Of a stretch of 64,000 nucleotides of DNA, positions 17,354 through 20,537 are shown piece after piece. The stretch's first letter is position 1, and each line of letters opens with the position of its first letter. The stretch is from the NCBI GenBank assembly GCA_903901045.1, contig CAIUPP010000023.1:62001-126000 (forward strand). Direction: 5' to 3'. A program made the position numbers and the translations under genes. The notes beneath the pieces were generated by a model. The model worked only from the letters and a program-made list of their open reading frames with translations, did no database searches and was not told the DNA's origin. Origin of the DNA: an uncultured Planctomycetota bacterium (GTDB lineage: Bacteria; Planctomycetota; Brocadiia; CAIUPP01).

Positions 17354-18700
17354 ATGTCAATGAGTGAAGCGCGAAAAGGGGCTGTGCGGGTGAGTTTTGA
17401 CAGCGGCCTCAAGCTTGAATTTCACGGCTCGAAGGTGACCAGCGACGCGGGACTTTTGGCGTATCGTGAGATTGATGAAGCGCTGGGTCTGACTACGATG
17501 GCCAGCGGCATGATTCAGGATTGGCGCACGGGCAGGAACACTCGGCACACGGTCACGGGTTTGATGCGACAGTCGACGTTCGGTCGTCTCGCCGGATACG
17601 AAGACACCAACGATGCTGAACGGTTGGCTGTTGATCCGGCGATGCGACATGTTGTGGGTGGCCGGGCAAAGACCCGCCATGCCGCCTCAACCAGCCAAAT
17701 GGGCCGGTTCGAGACCGAAGTGCTGACGCAACCGGCCAACTTGGATGCGTTGGTGGAATTGTCCGGCCAATGGATTGACCGCGTGAGGCAGCGCAAACCA
17801 ACGGACGAGATTATCCTGGACATGGACAGCTCTGTCAGCGAGACTTACGGCCAGCAGGAAGGTTCAGCCTACAACGGACATTTCAGTTGCACCTGCTACC
17901 ATCCGCTATTCTGCTTCAACCAGTTCGGCGACTTGGAGCGGATGATGCTGCGCAACGGCAATGTTCACAGCGCCGATGACTGGCGCTCCGTACTGGAGCC
18001 GGTGGTGGCCCGGTATCGCGACGGGGAGATGCAGCGCTTCTTCCGGGCCGATGCCGCTTTCGCCAACCCGAAGGTGTACGAGTTTCTGGAGAAGGAAGAA
18101 TATCTGTACGCGATTCGGCTGCCCGCGAATGATGTGCTCCAGCGGGAAATCAAACATCTCCTGACTCGTCCGGTCGGTCGTCCGCCGAATCGTCCGGTGG
18201 TGCTCTACGCCAGCTTCTCCTATCAAGCGGCCAGTTGGGACAAATCTCGTCGCGTAGTCGCCAAGGTCGAGTGGCACGCGGGTGAGTTGTTTCCGCGTGT
18301 CGGATTCATCGTCACGAATCTGAGGCGGGACGAAGAAGCGGTGGTCCACTTCTACAACGGACGGGGGACGGCGGAGCAATGGATCAAGGAAGGCAAGAAT
18401 GCTCTGAAGTGGACGCGGTTGTCTTGCCACGACTTCGCGGACAACCATGTCCGGCTGCAACTGTTTGCCCTGGCGTACAACCTGGGCAACTTTCTGCGAA
18501 GGTTGGCGCTCCCCGAAGGCGTAAAGCACTGGTCGCTGACGACGCTGCGTGAGAAGCTGGTCAAGATCGGAGCCAAAGGCGTGACGACCGCTCGGGACGT
18601 CATCTTCCAGATGGCGAAGGTGGCGGTGCCGAGGAAGTTGTTCCGCGCGATTCTGGAACGGATTGGACGCCTTCGAGTGCTGACGCTGACGCCGGGATGA
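17354..18700 (+). CDS. IS1380-family transposase
   Basis: 448 residues, full-length DDE transposase of the IS1380 family. The catalytic residues appear intact: Asp in '[13 protein letters not shown]', Asp in '[17 protein letters not shown]', and Glu in the family's '[17 protein letters not shown]'. The N-terminal '[17 protein letters not shown]' and C-terminal '[19 protein letters not shown]' are standard for the family. There is no frameshift. The start ATG 17354 lacks a clear Shine-Dalgarno; a TATAAT lies at 17286. It appears intact and potentially active, but element ends were not found. Confidence 0.95.
17354..18700 (+). mobile_element. IS1380-type insertion sequence (ends unresolved)
   Basis: Only the transposase gene can be bounded. 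Terminal inverted repeats and a target duplication were looked for in about 120 bases upstream and 200 downstream. Only a 10-base match was seen (CTTCATCCCG near 17250, inverted near 18830), which is too weak to define the ends. Confidence 0.6.
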
Positions 18701-20100: not shown

Positions 20101-20150
20101 TTAAAAGAGTCGCCCCGCTCAGTGCGGTGATCCGCATCACCGAGCGGGGC
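20101..20150 (-). terminator. Rho-independent terminator for the lysine-rich peptide gene
   Basis: Hairpin GCCCCGCTC (20112-20120) / GAGCGGGGC (20142-20150) with an inner CGGTGAT/ATCACCG stem. On the reverse strand it is followed by GACTCTTTTAA. It lies 15 bases beyond the small gene's stop codon. Confidence 0.8.
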
Positions 20151-20165
20151 TTGCATATCGTCAGG

Positions 20166-20270
20166 TTACTTCTTGGCCTTCTTCTTCTTGGTCACCTTCT
20201 TCTTTCCCGAAGCGATTTTCTTGGCGATCTTCTTCGACTTCCTCTTCTTCAGGGCCTTCTTCTTTGCCAT
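20166..20270 (-). CDS. 34-residue lysine-rich peptide
   Basis: Too short for the ORF track. The reverse strand reads MAKKKALKKRKSKKIAKKIA and ends with 'VTKKKKAKK': 34 residues, 19 of them Lys plus one Arg, with no acidic residue. A purine-rich GGAGAGGGGGG lies about 10 bases before the ATG. A TTGACA-16-TAGAAT promoter sits about 160 bases upstream (20427-20454), and a hairpin with a U-run follows the stop, so the transcription unit is complete. The composition resembles histone H1-like tails and the basic tails of bacterial nucleoid proteins. A DNA- or RNA-binding role is inference. Confidence 0.75.
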   Translation of the reverse strand: MAKKKALKKRKSKKIAKKIASGKKKVTKKKKAKK

Positions 20271-20426
20271 CAATAATCACCCCCCCTCTCCTGGCGTGAA
20301 AAAGGGATGAACTTCTCAGGGGCGGACACCGCCATGGCGCCCGCCAGCCCGTCGAACTAACGGACTATCGATGCGCAACATCTTGGGACTACCACCAGTT
20401 CATCCACTACATCCTGTACTAACAAG

Positions 20427-20454
20427 ATTCTAACTGCGGGAATCTCTATGTCAA
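20427..20454 (-). promoter_or_regulatory. Sigma-70-like promoter for the lysine-rich peptide gene
   Basis: Reverse strand: TTGACA (20449-20454), 16-base spacer, TAGAAT (20427-20432). The leader to the start codon would be about 150 bases. Confidence 0.65.
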
Positions 20455-20481: not shown

Positions 20482-20537
20482 GGAAAAGGGGGCAGGCATC
20501 TTTTCGCGACGGCGAAAAGCAGCCTGACCCCTTTTCC
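20482..20537. repeat. 56-bp hairpin repeat, copy 2
   Basis: Same hairpin as 2946-3001 with 4 mismatches, all kept outside the conserved CAGGCATCTTTTCGC and GCGAAAAGCAGCCTG blocks. It lies between the small-gene promoter and the end of the large reverse-strand operon. Confidence 0.88.

Follow-up and report, generated by a model that had tools for sequence, protein, structure and literature searches.

A sigma-70-type promoter, an extended Shine-Dalgarno (SD) sequence, a 34-codon lysine-rich ORF and a strong hairpin follow one another on the minus strand at 20112-20454 of the window, that is, the whole 64-kb stretch of DNA that was analysed (G000:C23:62001-126000, from a 4.77-Mb genome that is 94% complete). 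These elements, together with the occurrence in relatives of genes of the same type with the same type of ribosome site, give good support to a real small gene with its own complete transcription unit. The tiny lysine-rich gene is very probably real, and we consider it very likely that the peptide, MAKKKALKKRKSKKIAKKIASGKKKVTKKKKAKK, is translated. A wider class of micro-genes, of which this gene may be one copy, represents a more interesting lead than the window gene itself.

Proteins so short and so basic escape gene callers, family libraries and routine tryptic proteomics: 34 aa lies below the usual cut-offs, and Lys-rich peptides are missed by tryptic proteomics because they are cut to pieces.

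Architecture of the transcription unit

The preliminary description of this DNA had listed a TTGACA-16-TAGAAT promoter, a leader of 150 bases, a strong purine-rich ribosome site and an acid-free frame of 34 codons with 19 Lys and one Arg, all of which were recovered (Table 1). Promoter sites with at least 11 of 12 consensus matches numbered four in the window, against 0.05 expected from Markov-shuffled sequence. The remaining three (9900 minus, 12899 minus and 44729 plus) were each located closely 5' of a long ORF, so that the consensus seems to be in use in this genome, which makes such sites informative. The ribosome site, GAGAGGGGGGGTGATTATTG-ATG (AGAGGGGGGGTGATT), can form a 15-bp duplex with an anti-SD tail, here the generic bacterial one; its strength was equalled by none of 3000 random 20-mers from window positions. 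The hairpin at the end of the unit also folds strongly, but the U-tract formed by its tail, GACTCTTTTAA, is weak, and a terminator consensus scan did not include the hairpin among its listed terminators; the earlier designation as a hairpin-U terminator was thus a little generous as far as the U-tract is concerned. The general claim of a structure beyond chance stood, since promoter, ribosome site and hairpin all far exceed random expectation.

Table 1. Components of the lysine-rich micro-gene, with positions in the window
Feature	Position	Strand	Remarks
Sigma-70-type promoter TTGACA-16-TAGAAT	TTGACA 20454-20449, 16 nt, TAGAAT 20432-20427	minus	11/12 consensus match
5' leader, ~150 nt	20271..20420	minus	transcription start inferred from -10 box; fold z -2.26
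Candidate 21-codon leader ORF MAVSAPEKFIPFSRQERGGDY	20271..20335	minus	TGA overlaps peptide ATG (TGATG); may be chance
Predicted hairpin, ribosome site paired with CATCCCTTTTT	20277..20310	minus	SD mean pairing probability 0.86; -15.9 kcal, z -1.3
Extended Shine-Dalgarno	20274..20288	minus	15-bp pairing with anti-SD tail including G-U wobbles, -23.0 kcal/mol
34-codon ORF MAKKKALKKRKSKKIAKKIASGKKKVTKKKKAKK and stop	ATG at 20270, TAA ends 20166	minus	19 Lys, 1 Arg, 0 D/E
GC-rich hairpin then GACTCTTTT; likely transcription terminator	20150-20112	minus	-31.6 kcal/mol, z -4.02

The encoded peptide has a predicted mass of 3.87 kDa, a net charge of +20, a pI of 11.7 and a Lys content of 56%. Its lysines are specified by 18 AAG and one AAA, with a GC3 of 0.88 compared with 0.82 in the adjacent genes, and the codons do not form a pure repeat (GCC CTG, AGG AAG TCG, ATC GCC, GTG ACC). 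For the Lys frame, synonymous codon choice was neutral to good, and for the Glu frame slightly bad; taken alone it separated the Lys frame poorly from the frame on the opposite strand; the frame is therefore fixed mainly by the ribosome site. Two other ORFs were considered and rejected. The GTG of an acidic out-of-frame ORF (20280-20161) sits inside the SD, which leaves the Lys frame as the translatable one, and a hydrophobic opposite-strand ORF (20173-20310, TTG start) displayed neither a promoter nor an SD of its own, with a codon score about equal to that of the Lys frame.

Among Lys-dense short ORFs, this was the only one found in the 4.77-Mb genome, and runs of AAG/AAA doublets were genome-wide confined to this ORF and one or two short unrelated places. 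The flanking genes encode a 697-aa PKD/PA14/TPR protein (upstream) and an acetyl-xylan-esterase-like hydrolase.

Regulation through the long leader had also been proposed. The whole leader folds mildly better than shuffled sequences (z -2.3) and 86% of the SD is predicted to be paired, but the predicted SD-sequestering hairpin with CATCCCTTTTT, folded by itself, does not surpass shuffled sequences (z -1.3). The folding model thus lends mild support to SD pairing as a means of regulation, which we put forward as a suggestion only. Similarly, the overlap of the leader ORF stop with the peptide start would make translational coupling possible, and this too is a suggestion.

Homology searches and the family relative

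Peptide MAKKKALKKRKSKKIAKKIASGKKKVTKKKKAKK matched no family in Pfam (E<=0.001) or NCBIfam (E<=1) and, with phmmer up to E=10, none of the PDB chains, those of ribosomes included. No Rfam family was detected in the window at its gathering threshold, and seven micro-ORF loci likewise gave no Rfam match. The window gene itself was the sole match of a protein-level search among 98 relatives, and a DNA search of relatives returned other Lys-repeat ORFs and no orthologs of MAKKKALKKRKSKKIAKKIASGKKKVTKKKKAKK.

Comparison within the family relied on one genome, G001 (92% complete). The 697-aa neighbour was kept there at 47% identity and marks the syntenic place; with the patterns used, no Lys-rich ORF was found at that place or elsewhere in this genome. 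Gene position is accordingly not conserved for the window copy, G001 having retained the neighbour gene and not the peptide. A scan of the genome collection with the 697-aa neighbour returned nothing. Because the only family relative compared is without the peptide ORF, no ortholog with synonymous changes was obtained; the comparison of synonymous changes recommended in the preliminary description yielded nothing for the window gene, and succeeded in kind for the micro-genes of Brocadiales.

Similar genes in the class and phylum

The window organism is a member of the same class as Brocadiales, in the phylum Planctomycetota, and is thereby a relative of the anammox planctomycetes. A class-wide pattern combining the extended SD with a MAKKK start (GGTG-N3..11-ATGGCNAARAARAAR) was matched in 13 of 75 genomes. 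Reading of each match retained nine genuine short Lys-rich ORFs, in G000 (the window gene, 34 aa), G002 (42 aa), G018 (47 aa) and six genomes of the Brocadiales family f6; the other four start with MAKKK but belong to ordinary or unrelated ORFs.

In family f6, the micro-gene was found directly downstream of a radical-SAM gene in all six genomes (loci L204, L205, L206, L207, L208 and L209) and ahead of SMC in five of these loci (Pfam assignment made on the G023 copy), the locus of G070 ending before SMC. Its products, MAKKKAAKKKK, MAKKKAASKKKKK, MAKKKAAAGKKKK, MAKKKAASKKTAGKKKR, MAKKKAASKKKTTKKTAGKKKR and MAKKKAKKKAKKRVVKKVKKKAKKKAKKKAKKKAKRR, have lengths of 11, 13, 13, 17, 22 and 37 aa that differ by whole codons, and synonymous differences (GCA/GCG) are present. 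The SD was strong throughout, GGAGGTGA in five genomes and GGGGGTGA in G070. Protein length and sequence drift at this locus, whereas charge and ribosome site do not. On sequence grounds, no other comparison made here speaks as strongly for the translation of such ORFs and their retention for charge as this set does, and variable length with constant charge at a single locus offers a direct handle on selection for charge alone. In genus g16, the micro-gene is followed by about 200 nt of strongly conserved sequence without Rfam match.

A pattern for peptides of 27-37 aa was matched among 392 phylum genomes only by the window gene and by G152 (L221), with zero control matches. The G152 peptide, MAKKKAAKKKTPKTKVAKKKGAKRKKTAKKK, comprises 31 aa and is preceded by the SD AAAGGAGGTGAT and followed by a hairpin-T8 terminator. 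It resembles the window peptide in phylum, near-identical length, charge, SD (GGAGGTGATGGTTC-ATG) and hairpin-T terminator, but only the first residues align. Its gene lies at another place than the window gene, between genes for ScpA and for a SerA-like protein (the latter as read from sequence). Among the 392 phylum genomes, the G152 product is the closest analogue of the window peptide.

Other Lys-rich genes were noted in these genomes. The 42-aa (KKKAT)n gene of G002 (L215) lies directly upstream of an apparent bacterial-microcompartment shell protein gene, as read from sequence. A Lys-rich ORF is nearly identical in two genera of family f3 (L009, L010), where the region before MAKKK (MDRRHVCEPTGRP...) is unusually conserved; for this, a recent transfer or a longer protein are possible explanations. 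In G092, the ends of contigs C28, C133, C143, C521 and C202 fall within AAG-rich Lys-repeat genes, suggesting that a Lys-rich gene family present in repeated copies causes breaks in the assembly.

Micro-ORFs beyond the phylum

A scan of 84,980 species with the pattern MAKKKAxKKxK identified at least 80 loci; this count is a floor, the pattern was chosen by us and biases the length distribution towards itself, and many of the Rokubacteria copies are closely related. The matches listed were mostly ORFs of 11-13 aa like MAKKKAAKKKKK with a strong SD, and were scattered over Rokubacteria, Parcubacteria and other CPR bacteria, FCPU426, Pacearchaeota and Woesearchaeota. Among these listed matches, the 68 short MAKKKA ORFs had a median SD energy of -19.8 kcal; 58 of them formed SD duplexes at least as strong as -8 kcal, as compared with 19% of random window positions, and in 60 the SD was within the best 5% of its own locus. 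No description of MAKKK micro-ORFs was found in the literature (open-licence papers). From these sequences, unnoticed micro-genes of a similar kind appear to occur in many uncultured bacteria and archaea.

Some arrangements recurred. Rokubacteria among the matches listed often carry tandem pairs of poly-lysine ORFs of 10-15 aa, about 90 nt apart and each with a strong SD (including L094, L096, L098, L101, L125, L127, L130, L134, L139, L143, L161, L165 and L168). The pairs come after a conserved gene whose AbiEi_2 match is marginal, and are often followed by a conserved, repeated GGTGGGGGGTGGCGGCCTCCCACC hairpin. In FCPU426 and a related uncultured bacterium, a 12-aa micro-ORF is situated ahead of the FtsK gene at three loci (L120, L128, L159). 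DPANN archaea (Pacearchaeota, Woesearchaeota, Nanoarchaeota) display MAKKK(A/V)..KKKK(R) ORFs of 11-18 aa, most with an SD-like GAGG before and T-rich DNA after them (L107, L110, L111, L113, L116, L117, L133, L135, L137, L153, L157, L166, L169).

The window gene shows the features by which the class was delimited, namely MAKKK behind an extended SD, fewer than 60 aa, at least 45% Lys and no acidic residue, and it is recovered by the class pattern. Like the MAKKK micro-ORFs of the Brocadiales family, Rokubacteria, CPR and DPANN, it has an SD a few bases before the ATG in front of a product that, across the set, contains about 45-70% Lys and almost no acidic residues, usually as a stand-alone unit. 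The window peptide is longer and less repetitive than most of them (11-22 aa) and contains L, I, I and V; unlike that of the f6 micro-gene, its gene neighbourhood is not conserved.

Neighbours of the micro-ORFs include the chromosome-structure genes SMC, ScpA and FtsK, and are elsewhere mixed (RecG, SecA, TatD and ArgRS, read from sequence). The former give a hint of a nucleoid role, although unrelated genes adjoin too and the window copy is without such a neighbour. It can tentatively be proposed, as a reading that we hold to be doubtful, that the window gene belongs to a widespread but overlooked class of bacterial and archaeal micro-genes for poly-lysine peptides of 11-40 residues with exceptionally strong ribosome sites, in which selection would keep charge and expression and not sequence or length, the products being in effect encoded polyamines for nucleic-acid charge balance. 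If this class is real, uncultured lineages would possess a whole layer of encoded polycations for which, it appears, nobody has looked, and the Brocadiales and Rokubacteria cases represent fixed chromosomal addresses at which the class can be tested.

Possible function and alternative explanations

Transcription from the sigma-70 promoter would yield an RNA of about 300 nt, on which the very strong ribosome site would load ribosomes for the synthesis of a disordered polycation of 34 residues and net charge +20. The peptide would act through composition rather than fold, by binding polyanions, of which chromosomal DNA and/or RNA would be the most likely. Bound nucleic acid would be neutralised or condensed, in a manner comparable to that of the Lys-rich tails of histone H1, AlgP and chlamydial Hc, here with no attached domain. 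Action by composition is argued for by the lack of any fold, family or structure match and of an amphipathic pattern; an amphipathic helix was rejected since the hydrophobic moment was not above that of permutations (muH 0.178, p 0.45). The ease with which low-complexity AAG repeats arise and disappear counts against a polycation. A histone-like or RNA-binding function had been suggested from the outset, and the composition fits it, but no family, structure match or shared gene neighbourhood came to its support. We nevertheless favour a putative polyanion-binding polycation as the best explanation and consider it rather probable; what we infer is that the peptide is made in the cell, that it binds, and that its target is DNA and not RNA, the ribosome or polyphosphate.

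Several proteins can be set beside such a polycation. Chlamydial Hc1/Hc2 (HctA/HctB) are Lys/Ala-rich polycations of roughly 100-230 aa, regulated in the developmental cycle and thought to condense DNA; the window peptide is like them in polycation composition, and its 34 aa matched no family profile in Pfam or NCBIfam at the thresholds given above. The nearest tested precedent is AlgP of Pseudomonas aeruginosa, which has 352 aa, a helical domain at its N-terminus and KPAA repeats in tandem; its disordered, Lys-rich KPAA tail binds DNA and may also act on polyphosphate (PMC9239181). In proteins of the AlgP/PhaF type, a Lys-rich, low-complexity, disordered segment has been proposed to bind DNA or polyphosphate (PMC9239181). 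Such a segment is the feature that the window peptide shares with these H1-like proteins. Membership in their family is ruled out by the missing C-terminal KPAA repeats (its 34 aa contain no proline and no KPAA) and the missing N-terminal domain, the ORF opening directly with MAKKK and having no Pfam match.

The main rival explanation is a small basic protein associated with the ribosome or RNA, close in size and charge to bS22, bL37 or THX, that would bind rRNA and not the nucleoid. Known tiny ribosomal proteins have a comparable size and charge and a very strong, constitutive-type ribosome site, all of which the window gene resembles, and one archaeal micro-ORF (L114) comes after a short basic protein. 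However, the peptide matched nothing in NCBIfam, Pfam or a PDB set that included ribosome chains, G001 is without it, and a length that varies between 11 and 37 aa at a single syntenic location is ill-suited to a fixed ribosome pocket. We regard this explanation as unlikely, if still to be taken seriously.

A chance expansion of low-complexity AAG sequence that happens to be flanked by sequences resembling a promoter and a hairpin, with no gene at all, would agree with the missing ortholog in G001 and with the E-rich or F-rich ORFs that the repeats produce in other frames. It would demand the coincidence of a promoter that ranks with the best in the window, an SD unmatched among 3000 sites and a Lys-dense short ORF of which the genome yielded no second example, and the codons are not those of a pure repeat, so that we hold chance to be improbable. 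Nearly the same standing, or slightly less, is given to a regulatory RNA or structured leader in which the short ORF is incidental. The fold of the 150-nt leader (z -2.3), the strong hairpin at the end of the unit and the predicted pairing of the ribosome site are consistent with such an RNA, but the window yielded no Rfam family at the gathering threshold, an sRNA has no need of an exceptional SD aligned precisely with a start codon and a Lys-dense frame devoid of acidic residues, and the SD-ATG-Lys unit recurs in relatives without this leader. A cationic secreted or membrane-active peptide of bacteriocin or toxin type would share the high positive charge, but is very improbable, as the coding frame contains no signal sequence or hydrophobic stretch, the peptide forms no amphipathic helix beyond the level of permutations, and no immunity or export gene adjoins.

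Other elements in the window

A DDE_Tnp_1_4 transposase gene (17354-18700, plus strand) lies near the micro-gene and does not border it. A REP-like inverted repeat of 26 nt (GGGGCAGGC..CTTTTCG..CGAAAAG..GCCTGACCCC) is located at 20482-20537, between the gene for the 697-aa protein and the promoter, and again at 2955-2992; it had 58 matches in the genome and, under a strict pattern, two sites in the window.
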